A DNA stretch of 64,000 bases from Herbidospora daliensis (lineage in GTDB: Bacteria; Actinomycetota; Actinomycetes; Streptosporangiales; Streptosporangiaceae): NCBI RefSeq assembly GCF_001570585.1, contig NZ_BBXF01000002.1, positions 1,128,077 through 1,192,076 on the forward strand. Direction: 5' to 3'. Numbering within the stretch: position 1 is the first letter of the stretch; every line of letters begins with the position of its first letter. The position numbers and the translations under genes were made by a program. The notes under the pieces were generated by a model. That model searched no databases, was not told the origin of the DNA, and saw nothing but the letters and a program-made list of their open reading frames with translations. Of this stretch, positions 9,150 through 35,530 are shown one piece after another.

Positions 9150-11531
9150 ATGCTCCCATTTCCCTCCACCCTGAGAAGGCGGCTGTCGGCCGCGGCGACC
9201 GCGCTCGGGCTGACCGTCGCGGTCACCGTGGCGGCGGTCTCCCCGGCCGCCGCGGCGACCACGACCCTCTACGCCTCGGCCTCCGGGTCGGGCACGGCCT
9301 GCACCTCGGCGCAGCCGTGCTCGATCTCGGCGGCCCAGTCGGCGGTCCGGTCGCTGAGCGCCGGCATGTCGGGTGACGTCGTGGTCGAACTGGCCGCGGG
9401 CACCTACCGGCTGACCTCCCCGCTGCGGCTGACGGCCGCCGACTCGGGCAACAACGGCTACACCGTGCGCTGGCAGGCCGCCTCGGGCGCCCGCCCGGTG
9501 ATCACCGGCGCCCGCGCCGTCACCGGCTGGACGCTCGCCGACTCCGCCAAGAACATCTGGCGGGCCAGCGTCGGCACCGGCGTCGACACCCGCCAACTCT
9601 ACGTCAACGGCGCGGCCGCGATCCGGGCGCGCACCCAGGTCAACCGGGCCGACTTCACCGCGAGCAGCACCGGCATGCGGTTCACCAGCGGCGCCCTGAG
9701 CTATCTCAACAACCTGGCGAACCAGAGCCGGGTCGAGATGGAGAGCGTCGGGTCGTTCACCGACCGCTACTCCCCGGTGCAGAGCATCAGCGGCGGCCAG
9801 ATCACCATGCAGCAGCCGGCCTGGAACAACAACAACTTCGGCTACGACACCTTCACCCAGCCGCACCGGGCCGGGCCGCTCTACCTCACCAACGCCTACG
9901 AGTTCCTCGACGCCGCCAACGAGTGGTACCTGAACACCGGCACCGGGGTGCTCTACTACATCCCGGCCTCCGGCCAGAACATGAGCAGCCTCAGCGTCGA
10001 GATGCCGGTGCTGCAGTCGCTCGTGTCGGTCGGCGGCACCCTGTCGGCGCCCGCCCACCACATCACGTTCTCCGGCATCACCTTCACCGGCACGACGTGG
10101 CTCGGGCCGAGCAGCAACCAGGGCTTCGTCGACCAGCAGACCGGTTCCTACATCTACGGCAACTGGAACTGGCCCGGCTTCTCGACCTGCCACAACGGCT
10201 GCACGCAGTTCGAGGCGGCCCGGCCGAACTGGAACCAGATGCCGGCCGCCGTGCAGATCTCGGCCGCCGACAACGTCACCTTCACCGACTCCCAGTTCGT
10301 CAACCTCGGGCAGACCGCGATCGGCATCGGCAACGACGCCAACGCGACCACCAGCGGGGTCGGCCTGGCGGCCAGCAACATCACGATCACCCGGTCGGAG
10401 ATCGCCCGCAGCTCGGCCGGCGGCGTCGTGGTCGGCGGGGTCAGGGCCGACGCCCACCACCCCAGCGACCAGCGCATGGTCAACCGCTACATCACGGTCA
10501 GCAACAACCGCATCCACGACCTGGGGCTCGACTACCGGGGCATCGTGTCGGTGCTGACCACCTACGTCAACGACGCGACGGTGTCGTACAACGAGGTCTA
10601 CAACATGCCCTACACCGGCATGTCGATCGGCTACGGCTGGGGCGCCAACGACACCGGCGGCAACACCCAGTACGCCAACCGGGGCCTGTACAACTACCAG
10701 CCCCGCTACACGACCCCGACGACGGCCGCGAACAACCGGCTCATCGGCAACTACGTCCACGACGTGATGCAGCAGATGAACGACGGCGGCTGCATCTACA
10801 CGCTGTCGTGGAACCCGGGCGCGGTCATCAGCGACAACCACTGCCTGCGCACCAACGGGCACTTCGGCGTCTACTTCGACGAGGGGTCCAAGTACTACAC
10901 GGTCCGCAACAACGTGTTCTCCTCCATCGGGGTCTGGGCCACCGCCAACTACTGGGGCGGCGAGAACATGGGCAACTGGACGGTCACCGGGAACTGGACC
11001 AGCAGCAGTTCCACCAACGTGACCAACGGTGACCGGGGCAACGTCGTCAACAACAACACCGTGGTCAGCAACGGCCAGTGGCCCTCGGGTGCGCAGGCCG
11101 TGATCAACGCGGCCGGACCGCAGGGCGGCACCACCACCCCGACGACCGTGGAGATCGTGGGCGCCCAGTCGAACCGGTGCGTCGACGTGCAGAACAACAG
11201 CAACGCCAACGGTTCGCCGACGCACATCTGGGACTGCTCCGGGGTGTCCACCCAGCGGTGGTCGCGGACGTCGTCGGGCCAGTTCACGGTGTTCGGGAAC
11301 AAGTGCCTCGACGCTTCGGGCCAGGGCACCGCCAACGGGACCCCGGTGGTGATCTGGGACTGCAACGGCCAGGCCAACCAGCGGTGGACCGTCAACGCCA
11401 ACGGCAGCATCACGAGCGTCCAGTCGGGGTTGTGCCTGGACGCGTCCGGCAACGCCACGGCCAACGGCACCCGGCTGCATCTGTGGGCCTGCCACGGTGG
11501 CACCAACCAGCGCTGGACCCTCCGGGGCTGA
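9150..11531 (+). CDS. Secreted right-handed beta-helix glycosidase (GH141-like) with CBM13
   Basis: A 793-residue protein with a signal peptide (MLPFPSTLRRRLSAAATALG...PAAAA). After an N-terminal segment (ASASGSGTACTSAQPC, then GTYRLTSPLRLTAADSG and PVITGARAVTGW) comes a long parallel beta-helix (about 300-640) with repeated short N- and V-rich coils. A C-terminal CBM13 (about 665-793) has three QxW repeats. The N-terminal pattern and helix recall family GH141, whose characterised members are an alpha-L-fucosidase and a xylanase; this assignment is from memory. It is a close paralogue of the cytoplasmic protein at 16717. A strong hairpin follows the gene. Confidence 0.75.
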   Translation: MLPFPSTLRRRLSAAATALGLTVAVTVAAVSPAAAATTTLYASASGSGTACTSAQPCSISAAQSAVRSLSAGMSGDVVVELAAGTYRLTSPLRLTAADSGNNGYTVRWQAASGARPVITGARAVTGWTLADSAKNIWRASVGTGVDTRQLYVNGAAAIRARTQVNRADFTASSTGMRFTSGALSYLNNLANQSRVEMESVGSFTDRYSPVQSISGGQITMQQPAWNNNNFGYDTFTQPHRAGPLYLTNAYEFLDAANEWYLNTGTGVLYYIPASGQNMSSLSVEMPVLQSLVSVGGTLSAPAHHITFSGITFTGTTWLGPSSNQGFVDQQTGSYIYGNWNWPGFSTCHNGCTQFEAARPNWNQMPAAVQISAADNVTFTDSQFVNLGQTAIGIGNDANATTSGVGLAASNITITRSEIARSSAGGVVVGGVRADAHHPSDQRMVNRYITVSNNRIHDLGLDYRGIVSVLTTYVNDATVSYNEVYNMPYTGMSIGYGWGANDTGGNTQYANRGLYNYQPRYTTPTTAANNRLIGNYVHDVMQQMNDGGCIYTLSWNPGAVISDNHCLRTNGHFGVYFDEGSKYYTVRNNVFSSIGVWATANYWGGENMGNWTVTGNWTSSSSTNVTNGDRGNVVNNNTVVSNGQWPSGAQAVINAAGPQGGTTTPTTVEIVGAQSNRCVDVQNNSNANGSPTHIWDCSGVSTQRWSRTSSGQFTVFGNKCLDASGQGTANGTPVVIWDCNGQANQRWTVNANGSITSVQSGLCLDASGNATANGTRLHLWACHGGTNQRWTLRG

Positions 11532-11624: not shown

Positions 11625-12392
11625 GTGGCAGAGCAGACGAACGGCTCAGAACGGGCGGCGGGCCCCTACCGGCCCGGATACGAGGTGGCGGCGGAACAGG
11701 TACTGGAGCTGATCAGCCGGTTGCGGCTGCGGCCGGGTGACCGCATGCCCACGGAGATAGACCTGGCGCAGCGGCTGGGCACCAGCCGCACGGTGGTCCG
11801 CGAGGCGGTGAAGATCCTTTCCGCCCTGGGCCGGGTGCGGGCCCACAAGGGCCGGGGCCTCTACGTGGCCGACGACGAGGGCATGCTCGGCAGCGGCCGG
11901 TGGGCGCCGTTCTTCCTGCCGGCCGACCTCGACCACGTCTACATGTTGTTCGAGTTCCGGCGTACCCAGGAGATGGAGACCAGCCGCCTGGCCGCGCGCC
12001 GGGCCACGCCCGCGGAGCTGCGTGAGATCGAGAAGGCCGCGGGCGTCTGCCGGCATGGGTTCGAAACGGAGCGCCAAGACCTGTTCAACGAGGGCGACGA
12101 CGCCTTCCACACGGCCATCGCGACCGCCTCGCACAACATGTTCCTCCAGGTGTCCGTCAGGGAGGCGCGGCGGCTCCAGGCGCAGTCGAGCCTGATCGGC
12201 ATGAGCGGGTCGGTCGGCGGCCACGCGGCCAAGGCGGTCGAGGAGCACGAGGCGATCTACCAGGCGATCCGGATCGGCGACGCCGAGGCCGCGGCCGAGG
12301 CCGCCGCCGCCCACATCGACGCCACTCTCGAGGACTACCGGACAGAGATTCAGCAACGGATCTTCTCGGCGACCCAGGAAGTATTGACGTAA
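11625..12392 (+). CDS. GntR-family (FadR/FCD) transcriptional regulator
   Basis: A 255-residue regulator with an N-terminal winged HTH (YEVAAEQVLELISRLRLRPGDRMPTEIDLAQRLGTSRTVVREAVKIL) and an all-helical FCD effector domain (metal or acid-sugar-binding type). The GTG at 11625 (VAEQTNGSE) is preferred to an upstream ATG. A TACTCT -10-like box lies only 7 bp before it, which would give a nearly leaderless mRNA. FCD regulators of sugar-acid pathways often bind the pathway's keto-acid or acid. It directly precedes the importer operon, and an operator overlaps its stop codon. Confidence 0.88.
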   Translation: MAEQTNGSERAAGPYRPGYEVAAEQVLELISRLRLRPGDRMPTEIDLAQRLGTSRTVVREAVKILSALGRVRAHKGRGLYVADDEGMLGSGRWAPFFLPADLDHVYMLFEFRRTQEMETSRLAARRATPAELREIEKAAGVCRHGFETERQDLFNEGDDAFHTAIATASHNMFLQVSVREARRLQAQSSLIGMSGSVGGHAAKAVEEHEAIYQAIRIGDAEAAAEAAAAHIDATLEDYRTEIQQRIFSATQEVLT

Positions 12393-12412
12393 GACGTCAT
12401 ACGAATTACGTT
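12384..12412 (+). promoter_or_regulatory. Promoter and GntR-type operator of the importer operon
   Basis: TTGACG (12384-12389), a 17-base spacer and TACGTT (12407-12412) make a plausible promoter. The spacer is largely filled by CGTAAGACGTCATACG (12388-12403), a 16-bp palindrome with one mismatched pair. Its complementary strand reads CGTATGACGTCT, the exact 12-base word found again before the second GntR gene at 20393. Position and symmetry fit repression by a FadR-type dimer. Confidence 0.7.
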
Positions 12413-12466
12413 CCGGTTCACATGAGCGGCCGGGCCGACCGGCCGCCGCCGGGAGAGTGAACAGCG

Positions 12467-13741
12467 ATGAAGCGAACCCTTTGGCCGGGCGTCGTGGTCC
12501 TAGCGCTGACTGTGGCCGCATGCGGCAGTGCGACGCGTCAGGAGTCCACGCCGACCGGATCGGCCGCCGCGGCCCCCGCGAGCAAGCTCGTGGTCTGGGA
12601 CTGGAAGTCCGGTGAGCCGTACGCCAAGACATACATCGAGAAGGCGAAGGCCGACTTCGCCAAGAAGCACCCGAACGTCACCGTCGAGTTCGTGCCCCAG
12701 CCGTTCGAGCAGTACTACACGCTGCTCGGCGCGGCGATGCAGACCAAGACCGGCCCCGACGTCATGCTCTTCAACGGCGGCGGCCAGATCCGCGACCGGG
12801 CCGACTCGCTCCTGCCCCTCGACGAGTACGTCGCCGAGGACAAGTCGCGCCTGGCCGGCTGGGAGGCCTTCGCCAAGGACGGCAAGACCTACGGCGCCCC
12901 GGTGACCCTCCAGGGCCACCCGATCTACTACAACAAGGCCCTCTACGAGAAGGCCGGCATCGCCGCCCCCGCCACGACGTGGGACGAGTTCCTCGCCAAC
13001 TGCGACAAGCTCAAGAAGGCGACCGGCGCCGCCTGCTTCGCCCTCGGCAACAAGGAGGGCATCGGGCCGCAGTTCTGGCTTTCCGGTATGGGCTCGGGCG
13101 TCCTGACGCCGGCCGAGTACGACGACTGGATCGCCGGCAAGCGCGACTGGAAGTCCCCCAACGTCAAGAAGATCTTCGAGATGTTCAAGGAGACCGGGGA
13201 CAAGAAGCTCAACAACGAGGGCGCCAACTCCACGGCGATGTTCACCGACATCTTCTCGGTGTTCAACACCGGCAAGGCCGCCCACATCATCGGCCTGATG
13301 TCCGACATCGGTCACTGGAAGGACTTCGGCGAGTTCATCGGCCCCGACAAGGTCGGCATCATGCTCGCCCCGACCGTCACCGACGGCGCCATGCCGAGCC
13401 TGCCCTACGACGGCGGCATCGGCTACGCGGTGGCCAAGTGGACGAAGGACCCCAAGGCCGCGGCCGACCTGGTCCGTTCGCTGACCACCACCGACGCCCT
13501 GTCGTCGTTCTCCGCCGAGGCGGGCGCGATCGCGTCCGACACCACCATCTCCGCGCCGCAGGACGCCCCCGTCGTCGGCGAGATCGTGGCGCAGCTCAAG
13601 GCGGGCAAGCCGGCGCTGCACGTCGCGATGGACTCCAAGACCATCGACCTGATGGGCCGGCTGTCGCAGAAGCTGCTGAGCGGCTCGGCCACCGTCGACG
13701 AGGCGGTGGAGGAACTGGCCGCCTCCGACCAGGAGAACTGA
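12467..13741 (+). CDS. ABC sugar importer, lipoprotein substrate-binding protein
   Basis: A 424-residue cluster-B solute-binding protein with a lipoprotein signal (MKRTLWPGVVVLALTVAAC; lipidated Cys19). The mature part has the usual two-lobe features: KLVVWDWKSGEP, FAKKHPNVTVEFVPQPFEQYYTLLGAAMQ, PDVMLFNGGG and TYGAPVTLQGHPIYYNKALYEKAG. Such proteins bind oligosaccharides at the membrane and feed two permeases. It is followed at 4 bp by the first permease. No ATPase gene is present, so a shared MsiK-type ATPase is likely. Downstream enzymes suggest a fucosylated or L-galactosylated oligosaccharide. Confidence 0.9.
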   Translation: MKRTLWPGVVVLALTVAACGSATRQESTPTGSAAAAPASKLVVWDWKSGEPYAKTYIEKAKADFAKKHPNVTVEFVPQPFEQYYTLLGAAMQTKTGPDVMLFNGGGQIRDRADSLLPLDEYVAEDKSRLAGWEAFAKDGKTYGAPVTLQGHPIYYNKALYEKAGIAAPATTWDEFLANCDKLKKATGAACFALGNKEGIGPQFWLSGMGSGVLTPAEYDDWIAGKRDWKSPNVKKIFEMFKETGDKKLNNEGANSTAMFTDIFSVFNTGKAAHIIGLMSDIGHWKDFGEFIGPDKVGIMLAPTVTDGAMPSLPYDGGIGYAVAKWTKDPKAAADLVRSLTTTDALSSFSAEAGAIASDTTISAPQDAPVVGEIVAQLKAGKPALHVAMDSKTIDLMGRLSQKLLSGSATVDEAVEELAASDQEN

Positions 13742-13745
13742 GCCG

Positions 13746-14714
13746 GTGCCGACGAGGAACACCTCGCCGGCGGTCCGCCCGGAGGAATCCGGGCGGGCCG
13801 TCGAGGGAGGCACGAAGAGGGAGCGGGCCCGCCACGGCGCGGCCCGCCGCAGGGGGCGCTCCGAACGCTTCGCGCCGTATGTGCTGATCGCTCCGGCGGT
13901 GCTGATCATCGTGGCGCTGCGGCTCTACCCGCTCGCGCTGGGCGTCAACTTCTCCTTCACCGGAGACGGCGACGCCAACGGCACCGCGGTCGGCCTCGCC
14001 AACTACCTGGAGCTGCTCGACGACCCGCTGTTCCAGACGGCGCTCGCGAACGTGGGGCTGCTGGTGCTGCTCCTGCCGGTCGCGGTCGCGATCCCGGGAC
14101 TGCTGGCGACGTTCATCTACCTGAAGGTGCCGGGCCACCGGTTCTTCCGCAGCGTCTACTTCTTTCCCGCCGTGTTGTCGCCGGTGATCGTCGGGGCCAT
14201 CTTCAACCTGATGCTCTCCTTCGACGGCCCGCTGAACGAGCTCCTCGGCACGATCGGCCTGGGCCCGGTCGACTGGCTGGGCGACCCGGGCGTGGCGAAG
14301 TTCGCCGTCGTCGGGGTGCAGATCTGGGCGACGTTCGGCATGGCCCTGGTGGTGTTCCTCGCCGGCTTCGCCACCCTCGACGCCTCGCTGCTCGATGCGG
14401 CCCGCGTCGACGGCGCCTCACTCCGCCAGAGCATCTGGCACGTGATCATCCCGAGCCTGAGCCAGACGATCCAGTTCGTCTTCGTCACGACGATGATCGG
14501 CATGCTGACCTCGATGTTCGGCCTGCTCTACGTGATGACCAGCGGCGGGCCCGAGGGCTCGACCTATCTGCCCGAGTACTACATCTGGATCCAGCAGGGG
14601 CAGATGAACCGGCCCGCGCTCGCCTCGGCGGCCTCCACGGTCCTGTTCCTCATCATGCTCGTGGTGGGCCTGCTGCAGATCAGCGTGCTGCGCCGCGCGG
14701 GACGGGAGGACTGA
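13746..14714 (+). CDS. ABC sugar importer permease (MalF type)
   Basis: A 322-residue permease that starts at GTG. A charged N-terminal tail of about 40 residues precedes six predicted membrane segments. The ATPase-contact EAA loop reads DAARVDGASLRQSIWHVIIP. It follows the binding protein closely and its stop overlaps the next permease start by one base (TGATG). Confidence 0.92.
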   Translation: MPTRNTSPAVRPEESGRAVEGGTKRERARHGAARRRGRSERFAPYVLIAPAVLIIVALRLYPLALGVNFSFTGDGDANGTAVGLANYLELLDDPLFQTALANVGLLVLLLPVAVAIPGLLATFIYLKVPGHRFFRSVYFFPAVLSPVIVGAIFNLMLSFDGPLNELLGTIGLGPVDWLGDPGVAKFAVVGVQIWATFGMALVVFLAGFATLDASLLDAARVDGASLRQSIWHVIIPSLSQTIQFVFVTTMIGMLTSMFGLLYVMTSGGPEGSTYLPEYYIWIQQGQMNRPALASAASTVLFLIMLVVGLLQISVLRRAGRED

Positions 14715-15535
14715 TGCGGCGCGTCGCCAAGTGGGTGGTCGCCGTTCCGATGGCGATCCTGGCCCTGGCCACGATCTATCCCCTCATCTTCACGGCCAAC
14801 GTGGCCATGAAGACCCGGCGCGAGTACGTGCTCGACCGCTTCTCGCTGACCGAGTCGCTCCACTGGGAGAACATCGCCACGGCGTGGAACAGCGTCGGCA
14901 TGGCCCGCTACTTCGCCAACTCGCTCTTCGTGGTCGCGGCGTCGGTGTTCCTGCTGCTCTGGCTGGGCTCCATGGCCGGATTCGCGCTGAGCAGGCTGCC
15001 CTTCCGGGGGTCGAAGGCGCTGTTCATCGGCTGCCTGGCCGCGCTGTTCATCCCGTTCCAGGTGATCATGGTGCCGCTCTCGCGGGTCATGGCCGACACC
15101 GGCCTCATCGACACCTATCCGGGGCTGATCCTCGCTTACGTGGCCCAGTTCCTCCCGTTCACCGTCTTCCTGATGACCAGCTACTACCGCTCGGTGCCCA
15201 GGGAGATCGTCGACGCGGCCCGCATCGACGGCAACACGGTCTACGGCGTCTACCGCCGGATCATGGTGCCCATCGGCCGGCCGGCGTTGTTGTCGGTCGG
15301 CATCCTGGACGCCCTGTTCTGCTGGAACGACGTGCTCATCGCGCTGCTGATGATGCCGTCGGCCGACCACCGCACCCTCATGGTCGGGGTCACGTCCCTG
15401 CGGGGCCAGTACACCGACAACATTCCCACCTTCGCGTCCGGGGTCCTGATCGCCGCCGTACCCGTCCTGCTCGTCTATCTGTTCCTCCAGCGTCAAATCG
15501 CCGACGGTGTGACCGCCGGTTCCACGAAGGGCTGA
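14714..15535 (+). CDS. ABC sugar importer permease (MalG type)
   Basis: A 273-residue six-segment permease with the EAA loop VDAARIDGNTVYGVYRRIM and the typical C-terminal end (LLVYLFLQRQIADGVTAGSTKG) of the MalG group. It is translationally coupled to the preceding permease and only 1 bp from the dehydratase gene, so import and metabolism are expressed together. Confidence 0.92.
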   Translation: MRRVAKWVVAVPMAILALATIYPLIFTANVAMKTRREYVLDRFSLTESLHWENIATAWNSVGMARYFANSLFVVAASVFLLLWLGSMAGFALSRLPFRGSKALFIGCLAALFIPFQVIMVPLSRVMADTGLIDTYPGLILAYVAQFLPFTVFLMTSYYRSVPREIVDAARIDGNTVYGVYRRIMVPIGRPALLSVGILDALFCWNDVLIALLMMPSADHRTLMVGVTSLRGQYTDNIPTFASGVLIAAVPVLLVYLFLQRQIADGVTAGSTKG

Positions 15536-15536
15536 C

Positions 15537-16688
15537 ATGCGCATCTCGGGGTATCGCGCGTTGACCACCGTCCATGATTGGGGCCGTCCCGTCGGGGACG
15601 CCAACGGTCTCTACGCCGACGGGGTCGTCAAGGTCCCGCTCGTCGTCGTCGAGACCGACGAGGGCATCACGGGCGTCGGCGTGGGTCCGCACGTGGAGAT
15701 CGACTCGATCTTCGCCGCGCTGGAAGGAGAGGACCCCCGCGGCGTGACGGCGCTCTACGACCGCATGCTGCGGCGGGTCTTCAAGGCCGGGCACGCGGGG
15801 GCCGTGTTCGGCACGATCGGGGCGTTCGACACCGCCCTGTGGGACATCAAGGCCAAAGCGGCCGGCGAGCCGCTTTGGAGGCTGTTGGGCGGGCGCGATC
15901 GGCGCGTGCCCGCCTACGCCTCCGGTTTGGACATGGGCCTCGACGACGCCGGGCTCGTCAGCCTCTACAAGGAGTACGCCGAACGCGGCCTGCGCGCGGC
16001 CAAGCTCAAGGGCGGCCTCGACGTCGACCGCGACCGCGAGCGCCTGACGCTCGTCCGCGACGTGCTCACCGAGGCGGGGAACGGCGCCCGGCCGGGGCTG
16101 ATGCTCGACGCCAACGAGGTCTGGTCGCGCAAGCAGGCGGTCCGCCACGTGACCGAGCTGGAGCGCACCCTCGACCTGACCTGGGTCGAGGAGCCCGTCC
16201 GGCGGTGGGACGCCGACGGGCTCGGGGCGGTCGGCCGGGGCGTGCGCGCCGCCGTCGCCACGGGCGAGAACCTCACCGGGCTGGAGCAGTTCCGGCCGCT
16301 GGTCACGGCCGGGACCGTCGACGTCGTCCAGACGGCGGCGGTCTGGGGGATCACCCACTTCCTGCGGGTGGCGGCGCTGGCGCACGCCTACGACCTGCCC
16401 GTCAGCCCGATCGGCACTACCCCCCACGGCCTGCTGCACGCCGCCACGTCGGTGCCGAACCACCTGGTCACCGAGTTGCAGGACCTCCGGCCGCCGACCG
16501 GGTTCGTGCTCGACCACTCCATCGAGGACGGCGCGTTCATCCTCGGCGACGCGCCGGGGGCGGGCCTCACCCTCGACGAGGACGCGATCAGGGCGATCAC
16601 CGCCGGGCCGGTCACCCGCGCCTACGACAGCCCCGCGGTCCGTCCCGGCCTGGCCGGCCTGCACCTGCTGGCTCCCCGGGTGCACTGA
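15537..16688 (+). CDS. Enolase-superfamily acid-sugar dehydratase (mandelate racemase/MLE type)
   Basis: A 383-residue protein with an N-terminal capping domain and C-terminal barrel. Visible marks: the KxK-type base in AAKLKGG, metal ligands in LMLDANEVWS, TWVEEPVRRW and ATGENLTG, and a His in SPIGTTPHG. Members dehydrate L-fuconate, L-rhamnonate, galactonate and similar acids to 2-keto-3-deoxy acids. The fuconolactonase-like gene in the same operon makes an L-fuconate- or L-galactonate-type substrate the best guess. The Asp that usually pairs with the catalytic His (normally in a VQPD-like segment) is not obvious here, where the sequence reads VVQTAAVWGIT, so mechanism and specificity may differ. 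Confidence 0.82.
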   Translation: MRISGYRALTTVHDWGRPVGDANGLYADGVVKVPLVVVETDEGITGVGVGPHVEIDSIFAALEGEDPRGVTALYDRMLRRVFKAGHAGAVFGTIGAFDTALWDIKAKAAGEPLWRLLGGRDRRVPAYASGLDMGLDDAGLVSLYKEYAERGLRAAKLKGGLDVDRDRERLTLVRDVLTEAGNGARPGLMLDANEVWSRKQAVRHVTELERTLDLTWVEEPVRRWDADGLGAVGRGVRAAVATGENLTGLEQFRPLVTAGTVDVVQTAAVWGITHFLRVAALAHAYDLPVSPIGTTPHGLLHAATSVPNHLVTELQDLRPPTGFVLDHSIEDGAFILGDAPGAGLTLDEDAIRAITAGPVTRAYDSPAVRPGLAGLHLLAPRVH

Positions 16689-16716
16689 CGTCCACGCGGA
16701 AAAGAAAGGATCTGCC

Positions 16717-19536
16717 GTGTCTCTCTCACCCGTGGTCGTCACCGTCGCCCCCACCGGCGCCGCGAACGCCGACGACGCCGGGCCGGGCAGGCGGAACCGC
16801 CCGCTCGCGACCCTGGGGGAGGCGCGGCGGCGGGTGCGCGCCGCCCTGGCCCAGGGCCAGCTCGACGTGACGGTGGAACTGCTCGACGGCGTCCACCGGC
16901 TGACCGAGCCGCTGCGGCTGGAGGCGGCCGACTCCGGCCGCGACGGCCACCCCGTGGTCTGGACGGCGGCCCGCGGCGCGGACCCCGTGATCAGCGGCGC
17001 GATCCCGGTCACCGGGTGGCGGCCCGACGACCCGGCGACGGGCGTCCGGCGCGCCCGGGTGGAGCCCGGGTTCGACACCCGCCAGCTCTACGTCGACGGC
17101 GCGCTCGCCCGGCGGGCCCGGATCACGCTGCCTCGTGAGCGTGTCACGCTGACCGCCACCGGCCTCACCCTCGACGACCCCGGGCTGGCGTGGCTGGCCG
17201 ACCTGCCCGACCAGGGGCGGGTCGAGTTCCAGGCGACGTCGGCGTTCACCAACCGGTTCGCCCCGGTCGAGCGGGTCACCCCGGGTGAGATCGTCATGCG
17301 GCAGCCGGCCTGGGACAACAACACCTACGGCTACGACACCCTCCAGGCGCCGATGCGCACCCCCGAGTACTTCCTGGTCAACGCGCGGAGCTTCCTCACC
17401 GAACCCGGCGAGTGGCACCTGGATCCGGCGGCGGGCCTGCTCTACTACTGGCCGCTGCCGGGGCAGGACCTGGACACGGCGCGGGTCGAACTGCCGCGCC
17501 TGGAGTCGCTGCTGGAGGTCGGCGGCACGTACGACGAACCCGCCCGCCACCTGCGGTTCGAGCACCTGACCTTCACCGGCACCACGTGGTTGCGCCCGTC
17601 GTCCTCCGACGGCTACGCCAACCAGCAGACCGGCGCCTTCATCGCCGGCCCGCAACCGCACCGCCCGGCCGACGCGTTCGCCACGTGCGCGGTCGGCTGC
17701 GCCGGGTTCGAGGCGTCCCGCGACGGCTGGTTCCAGGTGCCCGGGGCCGTGCAGGTGTCGGCGGCGGAAGACGTCGCGTTCGCCGGGTGCACCTTCGCCA
17801 ACCTCGGCTCGGTCGCGCTCGGCATCGGCAACGACGCCAACGCCCACGCCACCGGCGTCGGGCTGGGCGCGCGCCGGATCACGGTCAGCGGCGGCACGTT
17901 CACCGCCAACGCCGGGGGCGGCATCACGGTCGGCGGCGTGCGCCCGGACGCCCACCACCCGAGCGATCCCCGCATGGTCAACGCCGACATCGTGATCAGC
18001 GACAACCGCGTCGTCGCCACGGCCGTCGACTACCTCGACCACGCCGGCGTCTTCGCCAGCTACGTCACCCGGCTGACCATCGCCCGCAACCAGGTCGCCG
18101 ACCTGCCCTACTCGGGCATCGCCCTCGGCTACGGCTGGGGCGCCAACGACCCGGGCGGCAGCCCCGACTACCTCGCCCGCGGCCTCTACGCCTACCGCCC
18201 CGTCTACGACACCCCGACGACGATGCGCGACGTGCACGTCGTCGGCAACCACGTGCGCGACGTGGTGCAGACGATGTCCGGCGGCGGCGCCCTCTACACC
18301 CTCTCCTCGATCCCGGGCGGCGTCGTCGAGGAGAACTTCTGCGAGAACAGCGGCCAGTACGGCATCTACTTCGACGAGGCGTCGCGCGACCTGACCGTGC
18401 GCGGCAACGTCTTCGTGAACACGGCCGGGCCGTGGGCGCACGCCAACATCGCGAACGGCAACCGCACCGGCGACCTGACCCTGACCGGCAACCACGTCAC
18501 CAACCCGGTCGTCACCGGCATCGCCGACGGCCTGCGGGGCGACGTCCTGCGCGACAACGTGACCGTCACGCCCGAGACCCTCCCCATGGAGGCCGCCCGG
18601 GTGATCTACGAGGCGGGTCCCTCCGGCGACCACCGCGGACCGGCCGACCCGGGGCGGCCCCCTTTCGGCGTGACCGTGACGGCCGACCGCCCCGTGCTCG
18701 ACGCGGGTGAGACGGCGGTCGTCACGGTGACCGTGCGCAACCTGAGCGAACGCCGGGCGTCGGCGGTGACGGTCGCGCTGGTCGTCCCCGACGGCTGGCT
18801 GGCCGAACGCGCCGGACGGCCGGCGCGGTGCGGGCTCGACTCCAAGACGTCCGGCACGGAGACCTGGAAGGTCACCGCGCCCGCCTCGGTCCGGGTCCCG
18901 GTGGGCCCGGCCGTGGTGAAGGCGGTCGTCTCGGGCTGGGCCGACCTGGCCGGGGCGGAGGTGGTGCGCTCGCTCACGGTGACCGCGCTCAACCCGCTCA
19001 CGTCGCTGAAGTCGCGCGGCTCGGTGTCCAGCCGCTTCGCCGAGGCCGGTTCCCGGTACGCCATCCTCATCGGCGCCCCCGGCACGCCGGGGAGCGAGGA
19101 GTTCGGCGTCGTCTACCGCGACGGCGTGGCCGGTCCCTCGTCGGTCGTCACCGCCCGGGTCACCCACCTCGACGGCGCCGACCCCGGGGCCGAGGCCGGG
19201 GTCGTGCTCCGCGACGACCTCTCGTGCTGCTCGCGCGGCCACGCGGCCATGGTCGCCACCCCGGGCGGGGGCGTCTGCTTCCGCTGGGACGCCGACGGCG
19301 ACGGCCGGCTCGACTCGGCCGGCTCGGTGCCGGACATCGGGGCGCCGGTCTGGGTGCGGCTGGTGCGCTCGGGCGGCCAGGTCAGCGGCTACTACTCCCG
19401 CAGCGGCGCCACATGGATCAAGGTCGGCCCGACCGCCGACCTGAGGGGCGTCGCCCACCGGCAGGACGCGGGCTTGATGGCCGCGTCGCGCGCGGGCTGG
19501 TTCGGTTTCAGCGACTTCAGTGTGAGGCAGGCATGA
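16717..19536 (+). CDS. Cytoplasmic GH141-like beta-helix glycosidase with C-terminal accessory domains
   Basis: A 939-residue protein starting at GTG after AGAAAGGA. There is no signal peptide: it opens VSLSPVVVTVAPTGAANADD. The first 640 residues follow the secreted paralogue at 9150 closely (PVISGAIPVTGW, RQLYVDGA, WDNNTYGYDTL, ANQQTGAFI, GYGWGANDPGG, YGIYFDEAS). It then carries an Ig-like NEW3-type domain (about 649-735, AGETAVVTVTVRNLS) and a C-terminal beta-sandwich-like domain (about 765-939) instead of CBM13. Location after an importer implies hydrolysis of imported oligosaccharides in the cytoplasm. GH141 includes an alpha-L-fucosidase, which suits the pathway genes around it; activity is inferred. 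Confidence 0.75.
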   Translation: MSLSPVVVTVAPTGAANADDAGPGRRNRPLATLGEARRRVRAALAQGQLDVTVELLDGVHRLTEPLRLEAADSGRDGHPVVWTAARGADPVISGAIPVTGWRPDDPATGVRRARVEPGFDTRQLYVDGALARRARITLPRERVTLTATGLTLDDPGLAWLADLPDQGRVEFQATSAFTNRFAPVERVTPGEIVMRQPAWDNNTYGYDTLQAPMRTPEYFLVNARSFLTEPGEWHLDPAAGLLYYWPLPGQDLDTARVELPRLESLLEVGGTYDEPARHLRFEHLTFTGTTWLRPSSSDGYANQQTGAFIAGPQPHRPADAFATCAVGCAGFEASRDGWFQVPGAVQVSAAEDVAFAGCTFANLGSVALGIGNDANAHATGVGLGARRITVSGGTFTANAGGGITVGGVRPDAHHPSDPRMVNADIVISDNRVVATAVDYLDHAGVFASYVTRLTIARNQVADLPYSGIALGYGWGANDPGGSPDYLARGLYAYRPVYDTPTTMRDVHVVGNHVRDVVQTMSGGGALYTLSSIPGGVVEENFCENSGQYGIYFDEASRDLTVRGNVFVNTAGPWAHANIANGNRTGDLTLTGNHVTNPVVTGIADGLRGDVLRDNVTVTPETLPMEAARVIYEAGPSGDHRGPADPGRPPFGVTVTADRPVLDAGETAVVTVTVRNLSERRASAVTVALVVPDGWLAERAGRPARCGLDSKTSGTETWKVTAPASVRVPVGPAVVKAVVSGWADLAGAEVVRSLTVTALNPLTSLKSRGSVSSRFAEAGSRYAILIGAPGTPGSEEFGVVYRDGVAGPSSVVTARVTHLDGADPGAEAGVVLRDDLSCCSRGHAAMVATPGGGVCFRWDADGDGRLDSAGSVPDIGAPVWVRLVRSGGQVSGYYSRSGATWIKVGPTADLRGVAHRQDAGLMAASRAGWFGFSDFSVRQA

Positions 19537-20390
19537 GCAACTCCGTCGTCGACGCCCATCACCATCTGTGGGATCTGTCCCGCCGTCCGCAGGACTGGCT
19601 GACCTCCCCCGAGATGAAGGTCCTCTATCGCGACTTCACCCCGGCCGACTTCGCCGCCACCGCCGCCGAGGCGGGGATCGGCCGGTCGGTGCTGGTGCAG
19701 GTCCTGGCCGACGCGGAGGAGACGCGGGAGTTCCTCCGTACGGCGGCCGAGTCGGAGACGATCGCGGCGGTGGTCGGCTGGGCCGACCTGACCCGGCCCG
19801 ACCTGCCGGAGGAGCTGGCCGCGCTGGCCGCCTCGCCCGGCGGCGGGCTGCTGCGCGGCATCCGCCACCTCGTGCAGGCCGAACCCGACCCGGCCTGGTT
19901 GTCCCGCGACGACGTGCGCGCCGGTCTCGAGACCGTCGCCTCGGCCGGGCTCACCTACGACCTGCTGGTGGCGCCCCACCAGCTGCCGGCCGCGATCGAG
20001 ACCGTGCGGGCCCTGCCCCACCTCGGCTTCGTCCTCGACCACCTGGCCAAACCCGCCATCGCGGCGGGGGAGCTGCGGTCGTGGGAGGCGCTGCTGCGGC
20101 GGCTGGCGGCCGAGCCCAACGTGACCGCCAAGCTCTCGGGCCTCATCACCGAGGCCGACCGGGAACGGTGGGACGCCGCCGCCCTGCGGCCCTATGTGGA
20201 GGTGGCGATCGACGCGTTCGGGCCCGACCGGCTGATGTTCGGCTCCGACTGGCCCGTCTGCCTGCTCGCCGGGTCGTTGCCCCGGTGGACCGACACGGTC
20301 CGGACTCTGCTGGCCGGACTGCCGGAGGCCGATCGGCAGGCGGTCTTCAGCGGGACCGCCGAGCGCGTGTACCGCCTGTCCACCGCGTGA
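19533..20390 (+). CDS. L-fuconolactonase-like amidohydrolase (COG3618)
   Basis: A 285-residue TIM-barrel hydrolase. The start overlaps the beta-helix stop by 4 bp (ATGA). It shows VVDAHHHLWDLSRRPQDWL at the N-terminus, GIRHLVQAEPD, FVLDHLAKPAIAAGE and the terminal FGSDWPVCLLAG, the signature set of the L-fucono-1,5-lactonase / L-rhamnono-lactonase branch of amidohydrolases. It would open a sugar lactone to the acid used by the dehydratase at 15537. The matching sugar dehydrogenase and the keto-acid enzymes are not in this window. Confidence 0.85.
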   Translation: MSNSVVDAHHHLWDLSRRPQDWLTSPEMKVLYRDFTPADFAATAAEAGIGRSVLVQVLADAEETREFLRTAAESETIAAVVGWADLTRPDLPEELAALAASPGGGLLRGIRHLVQAEPDPAWLSRDDVRAGLETVASAGLTYDLLVAPHQLPAAIETVRALPHLGFVLDHLAKPAIAAGELRSWEALLRRLAAEPNVTAKLSGLITEADRERWDAAALRPYVEVAIDAFGPDRLMFGSDWPVCLLAGSLPRWTDTVRTLLAGLPEADRQAVFSGTAERVYRLSTA

Positions 20391-20392
20391 TT

Positions 20393-20409
20393 CGTATGAC
20401 GTCTAGACT
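20393..20409 (+). promoter_or_regulatory. Second GntR-type operator with -10 box
   Basis: CGTATGACGTCT (20393-20404) is the same 12-base word, in inverted orientation, as in the importer promoter at 12388-12403. It overlaps TAGACT (20404-20409), a good -10 hexamer for the GntR gene that follows 38 bp later. No clear -35 is visible. The shared word suggests one FadR-type regulator acts at both ends of the unit. Confidence 0.65.
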
Positions 20410-20446
20410 CGTCGCACACGTGCGGTGGGGGTCAGCTGGAGGGGAC

Positions 20447-21217
20447 ATGGCGGCATCTCGGAGGGCGTCCGCGGGCACCGGACCCTCTCCCGACTGGACC
20501 AAGCGCCCGGCCAACCTCGCCCAGGCGCTCACGGGGGAGCTCGTCGCCCGCATCGTGCGCGGCGTCCACGCCCCCGGCACCCCGCTGCCGCCCGAGCCGG
20601 CGTTGTGCGAGTCGTTCTCCGTCAGCCGGACCGTGGTCCGGGAGGCGGTGAAGGTCCTGCAGGAGAAGGGGCTGGTCCAGGTCCGCCAGGGCAGCGGCAC
20701 GATCGTCACCGCGCCCACCGAGTGGAACATGCTCGACGAACTCGTGCTGGGCGCGACCATCGCCCAGGACGACGGCATCACCGTGCTCGACGACCTGGTC
20801 GTCACGCGGCGGCTGCTGGAGTCCGACATGGCCAACGTGGCCGCGCGCGTCGCCGACGGCGAGATCGTCGAACGCCTGCGCGCCCTGGTCGACCGCATGG
20901 ACGAACTCGTCGGCGACCCGGTCGCCTACGCCGACTACGACCGCGCCTTCCACGACACGATCATGCGGGCCTCCGGCAACCGGATCGCGCGGGCGGTCGT
21001 GCGGCAGCTGGAGAGCCAGGTGATCAACACCTCGCGCTACACGGGCCGCACCGAACGCGCGCTCTGTGTGGCCTCCAACCTCGGCCACCGGCGCGTCTAC
21101 GAGCGCATCGCCGGCGGCGACGCCGAAGGCGCCTCCGAGGCGATGTTCACCCACATCACCGAGGCGTGGCTGGTCCGCCGGGGCGGACCGGGCGAGCCGG
21201 TGCGCCTGCGCCGCTAG
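20447..21217 (+). CDS. GntR-family (FadR/FCD) transcriptional regulator
   Basis: The ATG at 20447 follows GGAGGGG; an upstream in-frame codon has no ribosome site and lies inside the promoter. The 256-residue protein has a winged HTH (ALTGELVARIVRGVHAPGTPLPPEPALCESFSVSRTVVREAVKVL) with wing GLVQVRQGSGTIV, then an FCD domain with D and H residues spaced for metal binding (DYDRAFHDTI, LGHRRVYERI). It closes the importer/dehydratase unit and carries the shared operator before it, so it is probably autoregulated. Its 3' end overlaps the LacI gene by 4 bp. Confidence 0.9.
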   Translation: MAASRRASAGTGPSPDWTKRPANLAQALTGELVARIVRGVHAPGTPLPPEPALCESFSVSRTVVREAVKVLQEKGLVQVRQGSGTIVTAPTEWNMLDELVLGATIAQDDGITVLDDLVVTRRLLESDMANVAARVADGEIVERLRALVDRMDELVGDPVAYADYDRAFHDTIMRASGNRIARAVVRQLESQVINTSRYTGRTERALCVASNLGHRRVYERIAGGDAEGASEAMFTHITEAWLVRRGGPGEPVRLRR

Positions 21218-22242
21218 CCGGCCCGGGGGGCGACCGACTCCCGGGGCCGCACGGGCATGGGGACCCGGAACACCTGACCGGGCTCCACCTCCCCGGCCAT
21301 CTGGGCGAACAGCACCTCGACAGCCTTGCGGCCGAGGTCGTAGTGGGGCAGCGCCACGGTCGTGAGCTTGGGCCTTATCCACGACGCGATCGGGTGGTCG
21401 TCGAACGACACGACGGAGACGTCGCCGGGCACCGAGAGCCCGGCCTCGTCGAGCGCCTGGTAGGCGCCCAGGGCCACCCGGTCGTTGAGGCAGATCAGCG
21501 CCCGGGGGCGGTGCTCGGCCAGCAGCGCGCGGGTCTCGGTCAGGCCGTGTTCGGGTTGCCAGTCGACGCAGACCCGCCCGCCGGCGATCTGGAGGCCGGT
21601 CTCCTTGATGCCGATCAGGCGCTCGACGGCCGCGACGCTGTCGGGGGGCACGTCGTTGAGCGTCGGCCCGGCGCCGATCATGTAGACCCCGTCGTGGTGC
21701 CCGGCGTCGAGCAGCACCCGGGCGGCGGCCCGTCCGGCGCCGATCTCGTCGGGCACGATCGAGGGCAGGCCCGAGGCCGGCCGGGGCAGCGCGTTGAGCA
21801 GCACGGCCGGGCCGATGTCCTTCGGGACCTCGATCGTGCGGGTGAACATGGCGGCCAGGATGATGCCGTCGACCTGGCGGTCCTGCATGGCGTGCAGCAG
21901 GCCGCGCTCCAGCTCGGGATCGCCCTCGCTCTCGCCGATGAACAACATCACGCCGCGTTCGCGGGCCGCCTCCAGGGCGCCCTTGATCATGTCTCCGGCG
22001 AGGTGCGTCGTCGCGACGGTGTCGGAGACGAAGCCGATCGTGCGTGAGGTGCCGGTGCGCAGCCCGACCGACACCGCGTTCGGGCGATAGCCCAACTCGT
22101 CGGCGGCACGCAGTACCCTCTGCTCGACATCGTGGGAAATGCGCAGCTCACGGCCCCGGCCCGTCATCACGAGCGAGGCGGTCGTACGGGACACTCCGGC
22201 CGCCTCGGCCAGATCGGCCAAGGTGACCCGACGTCGGCTCAC
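21214..22242 (-). CDS. LacI-family regulator of the sucrose/fructan unit
   Basis: The GTG at 22242 has GGAGG eight bases upstream and is preferred to two upstream in-frame ATGs. The 342-residue protein starts with the LacI HTH (VTLADLAEAAGVSRTTASLVMTGRGRELRISHDVEQRVLRAADELGYRPNAVS) and continues with a periplasmic-binding-like sugar domain (GFVSDTVATTHLAGDMIKGAL, LICLNDRVALGAYQALDEAG, SFDDHPIASWIRPKLTTV). It diverges from the importer and GH68 genes, which it most likely represses through the site at 22319. Confidence 0.92.
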   Translation of the reverse strand: MSRRRVTLADLAEAAGVSRTTASLVMTGRGRELRISHDVEQRVLRAADELGYRPNAVSVGLRTGTSRTIGFVSDTVATTHLAGDMIKGALEAARERGVMLFIGESEGDPELERGLLHAMQDRQVDGIILAAMFTRTIEVPKDIGPAVLLNALPRPASGLPSIVPDEIGAGRAAARVLLDAGHHDGVYMIGAGPTLNDVPPDSVAAVERLIGIKETGLQIAGGRVCVDWQPEHGLTETRALLAEHRPRALICLNDRVALGAYQALDEAGLSVPGDVSVVSFDDHPIASWIRPKLTTVALPHYDLGRKAVEVLFAQMAGEVEPGQVFRVPMPVRPRESVAPRAG

Positions 22243-22280
22243 CGGGGAGACCTCCAACATTTCAACCCAGTTACGGGCCC

Positions 22281-22334: not shown

Positions 22335-22349
22335 AAAGGGAGACGCACC

Positions 22350-23720: not shown

Positions 23721-23721
23721 C

Positions 23722-32692: not shown

Positions 32693-35530
32693 TCAGACCG
32701 TGACGAGGGTCCACTGGTTGTTGCTGTTGGTGTTGGGCGCCCACATGCAGACGGTGGAGCCGGAGGTGGCGTTGCCCATGCCGTCGAGGGCGGTGCCGGT
32801 ACCCCGGTTGATGATCTGGTAGCGGCCGTTGCCGGTGGAGGCGAGCCGCCACTGCTGGTTGTTGCCGCCGTTCCACGCCGACTGGCGGGCGTTGGCGCCG
32901 TTGGCGGTGTTGCCCCAGCTGTCGATCACCATGCCGTTGGTGCGGTTGACGATCCGGTACCAGCCGCTGCCCAGGTCGACCAGCTGCCACTGCAGGTTGG
33001 TCGAGCTGCCCGACGTCCACTGCTTGACGACCGACCCGGAGGCGACGTTGCCGCCGCTGTCCAGGACCAGCCCGGTGGTGCCGTTGACGATCCGCACCCA
33101 GGAGGTGGGTTGCTGCGGGGTGCCGGTCCCGGTCAGCCGGTAGGTGCGGCCCGCCTGCCCGGTGAAGGAGACCAGGTCGGATTCGGGCTTGGTGAAGGTG
33201 ACCGCGGCGCCGCTGTCGGTGACTTCGACGGTGCCGGTGAAGACGGCGTTGCGCACCCGGACGGTCCCGGCCCGGTCGAACCGCACCAGGATCTCGGTGG
33301 CCCGGCCCGAGCTCCAGGTGGTGGAGACGGTGTAGCCGCCGCGTCCGCGCAGGCCGGTGACCTTGCCGCCGGCCCAGGCCGACGGCAGCGCGGGCAGGAT
33401 GTGCAGCTCGCCGTTGTGGCTGTGCAGCAGCATCTCGGCGATGCCGGAGGTGGCGCCGAAGTTGCCGTCGATCTGGAAGGGCGGGTGCAGGTCGAACATG
33501 TTCGGCGCGAGCCGGGAGGTGGTGACCAGCAGCCGCAGCAGGGTGAGGGCGCGGGCGCCCTCCTCCAGCCGCGCCCAGTAGTTGATCTTCCAGGCGAGCG
33601 ACCAGCCCGTCCCGTCGTCACCTCGCAACTCCAGCGTCCGGCGGGCGGCGGTGTAGAGGCTCGGGGTGCCGCGCCGGGTGATCTGGTTGCTGGGGTGCAG
33701 GCCGTAGAGATGGGAGACGTGCCGATGGTTGGTCTCGGGCTCGATCCAGTCGTACAACCACTCCTGGATGTTGCCGCGTGACCCCGTCTTCATCGGCGCG
33801 AGGCGGTCGCGGGCGGCCAGGACCTGGGTGCGGAAGGAGGAGTCCACATTGAGGACCTGGCTGGCCTGGGCGACGCCGTTGAACAGGTCCCGGAGGATCT
33901 GGTTGTCCATCGTCGGGCCCGCGCACACGCTGACGCCGTTGTGGTGCCCGAGTTCAGGGCTGTTGGACGGGTTGGTGACGAGGTAGCCGAGGCTGGGTTC
34001 GGTGACGAGAGTGTCGAGGAAGAACTGCGCCGCGCCCTTCATCGCCGGGTAGTAGGAGCTCAGGAAGTTCACATCGCCGGTGAACTGGTAGTGCTCCCAG
34101 ATGAGGGTGGCCAGCCACGCGCCGCCGGTCTGCCACATGCCCCAGAACGCGCCGTCCACCACCGAGGCGCCGCGCCAGGCGTCGGTGTTGTGGTGGGTGA
34201 CCCAGCCGCCGGCGTTGTACTGCGCCTGCGCGGTGCGGGCGCCGGTGACGGTGAGATCGCCGATCATCTTGAACACCGGGTCGAAGCACTCGGCCAGGTT
34301 CGTGGTGTTGGCGTGCCAGTAGTTCATCGGCAGGTTGGCGTTGATCGTGTACTTCGAATCCCACGACGGGGTCAGGGAGTCGTTCCAGATGCCCTGCAGG
34401 TTGGCCGGCTGGGTGCCGGGGCGGGAGGAGGAGATGAGCAGGTAGCGCCCGAACTGGAACAACAAGGCGGCGAACTGCGGGTCGTTGACGCTGTTGTGCT
34501 GCGCGATGCGCACGTCGGTGGGCTGGTCGGCGGCCGAGGTGCGGCCCAGGTCGAGCGTGGTGCGGTTGAACAGGGTCTGGTAGTCGGCCACGTGCCGGCT
34601 GCGCAGGTCGTCCCAGGAGCGGCCGGCGGCGTTGTTGAGGTGGCCGCGGGCGATGCCCTGGTAGTCGCCGCTGACGTCACGGAAGTTCTTGTAGCTCGAC
34701 CCGATCGACACCAGCACGGTCACGCTGTTGGCCTGGCGGACCTGCACCGTGCCGCCCGAGCTGCTGACCGAACCGCCGTCGGCCACCACCTTGGCCAGGC
34801 CGAGGAAGCGGACCTGACCCGAGATGCCCTCGAAGTCGCCCGAGACGCCGTCGAGCGCCACGGTGGTGCTGTCGGGGCTCGACCGGGTGACCCGCTGCGG
34901 ACTGTCGAAGGTCGCCGAGAAACTGATCGAGGCGGACCGGTCGGCGGTCAGCCGGATCGCGATGACCTGATCGGGAGCGCTGGCCAGGATCTCGCGCCGG
35001 TAGCGGATGCCGTTCTGGGCGTAGGTGGTCACCGTGGTGGCCGTGGTCAGGTCGAGGTAGCGGTTGTACTCCGACACGCCGCTGGTGTTGCCGATCGACA
35101 ACCGCAGGTTGCCGACGGTCTGGTAGGCCAGCTGCCCGGCCGGGCGGCCGAGCATGTTCTGGTCGATCAGGCTCTGCGCCTGGCTCCACTGGTTCTGGAA
35201 GACCAGGTTCCGGATCTGGCCCAGCGAGTTCGCGTTCCGGCCGCTGCTCTGGTCGTAGGGCCCGCCGGCCCAGACGGTGTCCTCGTTGAGCTGCAGGCGC
35301 TCGACGTCGACGTTGCCGTAGACCATCGCGCCCAGCCGGCCGTTGCCGATCGGCAGGGCGCGCAGCCAGTCGGTGCCGGCGCTCTCGTCGTACCACAGGG
35401 CCAGGTCGCCGGCCTCCGCCGGCGGGGCCGCGGCGGCCCGGGCGACCGCCGTCCACTGCAGGGGGAAGAGGGCCGCGCCGGCGCCGGCGGCGCCGAACTG
35501 CAGCACTCTTCTGCGAGAGATGTCGGACAT
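32693..35530 (-). CDS. Secreted GH95 alpha-L-fucosidase or alpha-L-galactosidase with CBM13
   Basis: A 945-residue protein with a twin-arginine-type signal (SRRRVLQFGAAGAGAALF). The mature protein has the GH95 layout: an N-terminal beta domain (LALWYDESAGTDWLRALPIGNGRLGAMVYG, QLNEDTVWAGGPYD), an (alpha/alpha)6 barrel (WNDSLTPSWDSKYTINANLPMNYWH, GWVTHHNTDAW, HRHVSHLYGLHPS, LAWKINYWARLEEG, NLFD-like MFDLHPPFQIDGNFGATSGIAEML) and a C-terminal domain. A CBM13 (about 805-945) is added. GH95 removes alpha-L-fucose or, in some gut Bacteroides, alpha-L-galactose from glucuronoarabinoxylan. It is last in the operon, 6 bp after GH27. Confidence 0.9.
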   Translation of the reverse strand: MSDISRRRVLQFGAAGAGAALFPLQWTAVARAAAAPPAEAGDLALWYDESAGTDWLRALPIGNGRLGAMVYGNVDVERLQLNEDTVWAGGPYDQSSGRNANSLGQIRNLVFQNQWSQAQSLIDQNMLGRPAGQLAYQTVGNLRLSIGNTSGVSEYNRYLDLTTATTVTTYAQNGIRYRREILASAPDQVIAIRLTADRSASISFSATFDSPQRVTRSSPDSTTVALDGVSGDFEGISGQVRFLGLAKVVADGGSVSSSGGTVQVRQANSVTVLVSIGSSYKNFRDVSGDYQGIARGHLNNAAGRSWDDLRSRHVADYQTLFNRTTLDLGRTSAADQPTDVRIAQHNSVNDPQFAALLFQFGRYLLISSSRPGTQPANLQGIWNDSLTPSWDSKYTINANLPMNYWHANTTNLAECFDPVFKMIGDLTVTGARTAQAQYNAGGWVTHHNTDAWRGASVVDGAFWGMWQTGGAWLATLIWEHYQFTGDVNFLSSYYPAMKGAAQFFLDTLVTEPSLGYLVTNPSNSPELGHHNGVSVCAGPTMDNQILRDLFNGVAQASQVLNVDSSFRTQVLAARDRLAPMKTGSRGNIQEWLYDWIEPETNHRHVSHLYGLHPSNQITRRGTPSLYTAARRTLELRGDDGTGWSLAWKINYWARLEEGARALTLLRLLVTTSRLAPNMFDLHPPFQIDGNFGATSGIAEMLLHSHNGELHILPALPSAWAGGKVTGLRGRGGYTVSTTWSSGRATEILVRFDRAGTVRVRNAVFTGTVEVTDSGAAVTFTKPESDLVSFTGQAGRTYRLTGTGTPQQPTSWVRIVNGTTGLVLDSGGNVASGSVVKQWTSGSSTNLQWQLVDLGSGWYRIVNRTNGMVIDSWGNTANGANARQSAWNGGNNQQWRLASTGNGRYQIINRGTGTALDGMGNATSGSTVCMWAPNTNSNNQWTLVTV

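Follow-up and report, generated by a model that had tools for sequence, protein, structure and literature searches.

A putative uptake and entry operon for L-galactose in Herbidospora daliensis, with a leaderless GH141-like protein

Described oxidative routes and the Herbidospora operon

The non-phosphorylating L-fucose pathway is composed of L-fucose dehydrogenase, L-fuconolactonase, L-fuconate dehydratase (FucD), 2-keto-3-deoxy-L-fuconate (L-KDF) 4-dehydrogenase and a hydrolase. L-Galactose pathways running via D-tagaturonate have been described in Bacteroides vulgatus and Luteolibacter sp. LG18, with oxidative entry through L-galactonate (PMC12632266), and an L-galactonate dehydratase of the UxaA/GarD family has been attributed to Acidovorax (PMC6336799, citing unpublished data). 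The catabolism of 3,6-anhydro-L-galactose in Streptomyces coelicolor (PMC9706016), together with the cycloisomerase 5xd7, provides an actinobacterial route that uses the enolase superfamily. Here we describe an operon at positions 11625-21217 of a 64,000-nucleotide stretch of the genome of Herbidospora daliensis, a soil actinomycete (the window; G000:C2:1128077-1192076, within a genome of 8.52 Mb). On balance we read this operon as serving uptake and the first steps of breakdown within an L-galactose regulon.

All genes of the operon lie on the plus strand, nearly gap-free and with a strong coding signal. They encode a GntR/FCD regulator, R1 (11625..12392), an ortholog of which precedes the operon in some relatives; an extracellular sugar-binding protein, SBP (12467..13741, SBP_bac_1); two ATP-binding cassette (ABC) permeases, P1 (13746..14714) and P2 (14714..15535), both BPD_transp_1; an enolase-superfamily sugar-acid dehydratase, ENO (15537..16688, MR_MLE_N/C), the proposed L-galactonate dehydratase; a leaderless protein resembling glycoside hydrolase (GH) family GH141 (16717..19536, PF21231 and 5mqp matches; hereafter the 16717 protein); a cog3618-type aldonolactonase, LAC (19533..20390, Amidohydro_2); and a second GntR/FCD regulator, R2 (20396..21217, with a start at 20396 or 20447). 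The initial annotation had listed the same parts (two GntR/FadR regulators, importer, dehydratase, GH141-like protein and lactonase-like hydrolase), all were present at the stated coordinates, and Pfam confirmed their domains, with a weak match for the GH141-like protein. No ATPase gene for the importer was found inside the unit. Because SBP-P1-P2-ENO recurs across many genera, the arrangement is more than chance; a close named relative is Herbidospora galbida, with an ENO identity of 92%.

Homologues of the aldo-keto reductase (AKR), lactonase, short-chain dehydrogenase (SDR) and FAH hydrolase of the L-fucose pathway accompany ENO in relatives or lie behind the operator described below. Unlike that pathway, ENO belongs to a different enolase-superfamily clade without the FucD His-Asp pair, and the ENO system has an operator, an SBP_bac_1-type importer and a GH141 partner of its own. 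The B. vulgatus and Luteolibacter pathways oxidise L-galactonate on to tagaturonate, whereas here a dehydratase is proposed and the altronate step is absent. The Acidovorax enzyme catalyses the reaction proposed for ENO and belongs to an unrelated protein family; it is reportedly also the subject of Watanabe 2019 (Mol Microbiol), going by the title. The anhydro-L-galactose route, which we take to lead to the proposed ENO product, differs in its sugar and has no lactonase step, and 5xd7 matches ENO at 94 bits. The 16717 protein and the GH141 enzyme BT1002 (5mqp) are alike in beta-helix fold, insertion domain and the equivalent of Asp564; BT1002, presumably exported, has Asp523, whereas in the 16717 protein that position is Gly and a leader is missing. 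Among the open-access papers listed on GH141 with L-galactose, L-galactonate dehydratase, 2-keto-3-deoxy-L-galactonate and L-galactose catabolism, judged by titles and abstract openings and with subscription papers mostly outside, no comparable actinobacterial L-galactose system appeared, and bacterial L-galactose consumption was represented by the tagaturonate routes and the UxaA-family dehydratase only.

The dehydratase and its neighbourhood in relatives

By sequence, ENO is nearest in the PDB to 2ovl (120.4 bits), then to 2oz8, 2og9 and L-talarate/galactarate dehydratase, and scores 71.6 bits against the L-fuconate dehydratase structure 1yey. 2ovl is also the best structural match of its AlphaFold model (mean pLDDT 80, with parts of the barrel weaker). 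The NCBIfam talarate/galactarate dehydratase model gave 154 bits (cut-off 500), and the second-best model, archaeal arabinonate dehydratase, 117 bits (cut-off 650). The latter match, and the fact that D-arabinose shares C2-C4 with L-galactose (PMC6336799), could speak for another sugar of the same stereochemistry or product, such as D-arabinose, L-gulose or L-idonate. Such a substrate is very improbable, however: the branch through KduD and 2-keto-3-deoxy-D-gluconate (KDG) kinase found near ENO in relatives needs six carbons, and the plant-xylan context fits L-galactose (PMC4491172).

Active-site residues were inspected in an alignment of 119 ENO and 50 FucD rows, which contained near-copies. 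K156, K158, D191, E219 and E244, which we take to be the KxK bases and three metal ligands of both enzymes, were kept in all 119 ENO rows. The columns of FucD H349 and D322, presumably an acid dyad on the far side of the active site, were gaps in 119/119 ENO rows and occupied in 50/50 FucD rows. Judged by these residues, ENO is not an L-fuconate dehydratase of the FucD kind. This contradicts the initial annotation, which had given ENO the fuconate dehydratase step; the genome has three FucD genes, all elsewhere. From gene context, we propose that ENO may act as an L-galactonate dehydratase.

Twenty stretches, two from the window's own genome and 18 from relatives, were compared together with 80 named ENO loci (the best 80 of at least 573 confirmed matches, not a random sample; 12 of the 80 were shorter than 15 kb). 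They showed the SBP-P1-P2-ENO core, and two downstream sets were found near it: SDR4 with FAH, in some cases with Lar genes, and the zinc dehydrogenase MDR with KduD, LAC and AKR. LarA, LarB and LarC were assigned by Pfam matches, and LarE by position and a weak ATP-pyrophosphatase-type match. A Nocardioides locus (L154) carried ENO, LAC, AKR, MDR, a KduD-like protein, EDA aldolase, a KDG-kinase-like protein, FAH and SDR together, and its EDA passed the NCBIfam cut-off (179.4 vs 156.05). The KduD of L108 passed TIGR01832 (339.2 vs 338.85); the L108 and L154 copies were the only ones scored. At L137, a glycerate kinase gene overlapped LarA and passed its cut-off (364.6 vs 168.45). These homologous loci, with AKR, lactonase, 4-dehydrogenase, FAH and Lar, or with MDR and KduD, indicate that the initial annotation was probably right about the family of sugar, an oxidative L-fucose or L-galactose system, while its mechanism held in part. 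The ENO module was also seen in several Streptomyces of the potato-scab group (L133, L134, L144, L152), near GH95 and GH141 genes.

In a class-wide draw of 296 genomes (ENO called at E <= 1e-100, FucD at E <= 1e-120), ENO was present in 22 and FucD in 76, and 20 of the 22 had both (Fisher 3e-11, relatedness ignored). For the contrast with FucD, 23 loci that together include all 24 ENO places were set against 43 FucD loci, three from the own genome and 40 drawn from a longer list, mostly in order of rank; our own gene caller was used, which missed ENO itself in 2 of the 23. MDR was found in 8/23 ENO loci vs 1/43 FucD loci, the KduD-type reductase in 9/23 vs 1/43, and GH141 in 14/23 vs 0/43. Conversely, SDR4 was found in 1/23 ENO loci vs 33/43 FucD loci, FAH in 2/23 vs 17/43, and a ribose-type sugar-binding protein (our label, fucSBP) in 0/23 vs 14/43. 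AKR (8/23 vs 40/43) and LAC (7/23 vs 23/43) thus adjoin FucD more often than ENO.

Operator, downstream genes and the choice of sugar

The sequence TGACGTnnnACGTCA was found exactly in 51 of 72 SBP upstream regions, and with up to 2 mismatches in 67 of the 72; in 20 mononucleotide shuffles of these regions, palindromic words were common to at most 6-9 regions. The whole 8.52 Mb genome contains three exact sites. One, TGACGTAAGACGTCA, lies at 12385..12399 (+) of the window, 67 bp before the SBP start; another (C5:572975-572989) precedes a secreted GH141 paralogue; and the third (C1:407627-407641) lies 45 bp before FAH-SDR-LarA-LarB-LarC. With up to 1 mismatch, the genome had 35 sites vs 13 for a reversed control pattern, so little weight can be put on sites with a single mismatch. 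The relocated secreted GH141 copies of the genus had the exact operator upstream in 5/5 cases (L047, L049, L050, L051, L055), and sites with up to 1 mismatch occurred at 10 of 80 GH141 places vs 1 of 289 control stretches. A longer form of the operator (up to 1 mismatch) was sought in 11 other genomes, and 10 of them yielded 14 sites in all: 10 before SBP, one before GH141 (G162), one between R2 and LAC (G027), and two (G142, G027) without evident link to the system. This distribution suggests that the three operator-bearing units are co-regulated. Either R2 or R1 may bind the operator; R2 appears the likelier, because in most named loci it is oriented divergently from SBP.

FAH, SDR and LarABC, behind the identical operator, could supply the missing keto-acid steps. 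The initial annotation had expected the dehydrogenase and keto-acid enzymes elsewhere; candidates for the latter are thus at hand in the same genome, while the sugar dehydrogenase (AKR) was not pinned down there. C4 holds a full L-fucose-type cluster (FAH, FucD, SDR, a RhaM-AKR fusion and a LAC paralogue), and further FucD genes lie at C1:270478 and C1:390818; C1 has a FucD-GntR unit with a ribose-type importer and GH95 nearby. Beside FucD and the ribose-type importer on C1 (L171, 8394-11234), a second GH95 was typed by its similarity to that of the window. A KduD on C5 (55%) was set aside: by eye it adjoins KduI, and the 16 kb around it had no operator at <2 mismatches.

The LarA selectivity positions hold F, F, W and Q, and the Gln at the position of LarA1 Thr359 was present in 6/6 full-length distinct LarA copies. 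Lactate racemases also racemise glycerate, and Gln has been suggested to favour glycerate use (PMC11770544). E or Q is usual at that position within the lactate-racemase group, and the Gln may lend weak support to glycerate use. A role for LarA as a sugar-acid epimerase was set aside, since the copies show that group's F, F, W, Q and the LarA of a relative (L052) scores as a lactate racemase. LAC had a sole NCBIfam match, L-fucono-1,5-lactonase (NF052480), at 217.6 bits, below the equivalog cut-off of 400, and a best PDB match of 4dlf; despite this score it may work as a cog3618 aldonolactonase.

From gene content, synteny, operator distribution and residue conservation, we infer each substrate and reaction of the following pathway. 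GH95 and the operator-bearing secreted C5 GH141 would release L-galactose or short oligosaccharides from glucuronoarabinoxylan, and SBP-P1-P2 would import the released sugar with an ATPase shared with other importers. An AKR sugar 1-dehydrogenase encoded elsewhere would form the lactone, LAC would open it to L-galactonate, and ENO would dehydrate L-galactonate to 2-keto-3-deoxy-L-galactonate (L-KDGal). In the genus, SDR would then oxidise C4, FAH would split the product into pyruvate and L-glycerate, and LarA would racemise L-glycerate; a published L-KDF 4-dehydrogenase takes L-KDGal just 5.3-fold less well than L-KDF (PMC11199699). In other actinomycetes, the zinc dehydrogenase and the KduD-type reductase would invert C5 to give KDG, which would be phosphorylated and split.

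This second route bears on the choice of sugar. L-KDGal and KDG differ at C5 only, so that oxidation by MDR and reduction by KduD at C5 would interconvert them, and since the inversion needs the C6 hydroxyl, it points to L-galactose rather than L-fucose. Moreover, neither KDG kinase nor glycerate kinase can act without a terminal CH2OH, a group absent in L-fucose; KduD, EDA and glycerate kinase near ENO therefore favour L-galactose. L-Fucose is the main rival. In that case L-fucose or fucosylated oligosaccharides would be taken up, ENO would be a second, unrelated L-fuconate dehydratase, and the pathway would end in pyruvate and L-lactate, racemised by LarA. We consider this rather unlikely. 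FucD does lie near the ENO module in L099, L123, L161 and L237 (by eye also in L057 and L058); yet FucD is already present in nearly all ENO genomes and in three copies here, FucD loci carry a different transporter and downstream set, and a 6-deoxy sugar would hardly account for the KduD, KDG kinase, 2-keto-3-deoxy-6-phosphogluconate aldolase and glycerate kinase found near ENO.

Several observations weigh against L-galactose, some of them directly in favour of L-fucose. The SDR, FAH and LarA behind the identical operator are an L-fucose-type set, the best match of LAC is L-fuconolactonase, the known exo-activity of GH141 is that of an alpha-L-fucosidase, and the L052 LarA passes NF033504, the model of the nickel-dependent lactate racemase (523.5 vs 460). 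A close MDR was not found in the window's genome, where the best match was 32%. Among the best 80 ENO loci, 18 had MDR and KduD together, 6 had SDR4 or FAH, and 56 had none of the four within the stretch examined. The KduD (322.3 vs 338.85) and KDG kinase (169.5 of 400) of L154 fell below their cut-offs, and L137 was the single locus with glycerate kinase among those examined. The sole FucD locus with MDR and KduD, L270 (G437:C1:4173101-4193100), also has LAC and EDA. Finally, ENO is without the FucD His-Asp pair, so that even dehydration is deduced from context. L270 looks as if FucD had been recruited to an L-galactose-type route.

L-Galactose remains the sugar we favour. We also put forward, more tentatively, a wider proposal: an actinobacterial L-galactose regulon with a dyad-less L-galactonate dehydratase of the enolase superfamily, two alternative downstream routes (through C5 inversion, or through C4 oxidation, cleavage and a nickel-dependent racemisation of L-glycerate), a new GH141 specificity for L-galactosyl xylan side chains, and repeated GH141 internalisation with Asp loss in at least two lineages, suggesting a sensor or an altered-chemistry enzyme.

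The GH141-like proteins and the surrounding window

The Pfam GH141 match of the 16717 protein is weak (PF21231, 27.3 bits, cut-off 27). Against BT1002 (5mqp), the protein gave E 2.1e-39 by sequence and E 2.8e-63 with a profile of 18 relatives, and a model of residues 1-660 (pLDDT 87.9) gave a Foldseek E of 3.7e-35 (TM 0.71/0.77). Pfam, profile and fold thus agree on a GH141 beta-helix fold with an insertion domain. By our own hydropathy rule, used for leader calls on all GH141 copies, no hydrophobic leader precedes the protein, as the initial annotation had also noted. Asp523 and Asp564 have been described as essential or critical in BT1002 (PMC12786026, PMC10154630). When BT1002 chain residues 505-580 were aligned (Asp pair 41 apart, chain numbering offset 5 by our own count), the equivalents were Gly522 (codon 18280..18282, +) and Asp553 (codon 18373..18375, +); one residue of the catalytic pair is therefore kept.

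The GH141 set comprised 85 rows, of which 38 were at >=57% identity; 4 duplicates were dropped to leave 34. Among these, 24 had a leader and the Asp, three were leaderless with both Asp (L061, L062 and one L145 copy), and seven were leaderless without the Asp523 equivalent (five Gly, one Ala, one Glu). All 47 rows below 57% identity had Asp at that position, and the Asp553 equivalent was present in 85/85 rows. Of the seven genus genomes, five combine a leaderless operon GH141 bearing Gly with a second, secreted copy at another place, which in H. daliensis is on C5 and has both Asp. The operon copy of G149 also lacks a leader but has Ala and is shorter, and that of G109 is secreted with Asp. 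The tree required at least four leader-state changes and at least two Asp changes; for the association of the two, a paired test had too few changes for significance, and the Fisher value ignores relatedness. By the same tree, the leaderless 16717 protein descends from secreted enzymes.

Mean pairwise dN/dS over five species was 0.275 for the leaderless GH141, 0.245 for the secreted paralogue and 0.174 for ENO. The leaderless protein is under purifying selection, and a pseudogene reading was rejected on this value and on zero internal stops in the five species; a stop flagged for LAC in L066 during this analysis was a slightly earlier gene end. The initial annotation had supposed that the cell imports an L-fucosylated or L-galactosylated oligosaccharide and that the 16717 protein then cuts it in the cytosol. 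The missing leader, the intact 939-residue frame under selection, the conserved fold with its second Asp, and the three leaderless copies retaining both Asp would suit that mechanism. Nevertheless, we regard it as improbable: where BT1002 has Asp523, one of a pair critical there, the clade's five species have Gly and two further leaderless copies have Ala and Glu, whereas all 24 distinct leader-bearing copies at >=57% identity have Asp. In addition, the tree points to secreted ancestry, and the operator lies before an intact paralogue that is secreted. The leaderless GH141-like protein has probably ceased to be a standard GH141 glycosidase, and we propose a cytosolic sugar-binding or altered-chemistry role.

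Beside the leaderless, Asp-keeping GH141 of L061 and L062, a gene (8742-10238 and 7177-8673, respectively) resembles by eye a cytosolic GH51 arabinofuranosidase, which suggests oligosaccharide import there. The C5 paralogue was considered as a second catabolic locus and set aside, since the Amidohydro_2 gene about 1 kb away belongs, by eye, to a kynurenine-type cluster.

The window also holds the secreted GH141-like paralogue and the GH95 reported initially. The former (9150..11531, +) has a ricin lectin domain and keeps both catalytic-Asp positions; its best upstream operator-like site has 3 mismatches, and none was counted. The GH95 (32693..35506, -), secreted and likewise with a ricin lectin domain, lies in a xylan-degrading minus-strand block (26444-46865) of several GH43, GH95, GH27, GH62, GH10 and GH127, a gene set that fits glucuronoarabinoxylan. 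Published work documents L-galactose as well as a GH95 alpha-L-galactosidase that acts on corn xylan (PMC4491172). Thr or His at the position of BACOVA_03438 Thr370, where the window GH95 has Thr, was tried as a fucose/galactose marker and not used as evidence; Thr occurs there in a fucose-specific enzyme too (PMC8245568). Adjoining the operon, 21214-26443 is a separate unit of a LacI regulator, a second sugar ABC importer and a GH68-type protein (PF02435, 161.8 bits), and 3584-7280 encodes an unrelated Amidohydro_2 protein, an MFS transporter and an AMP-dependent ligase, resembling a small aromatic-acid cassette.

L-Galactose decorates cereal glucuronoarabinoxylan. If the proposal is true, a widespread actinobacterial pathway would be named, and it would predict a dehydratase family that is so far uncharacterised as well as a new activity for GH141. 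The leaderless protein would then represent a case of an enzyme relocated from outside to inside the cell, with a catalytic residue lost and selection kept.

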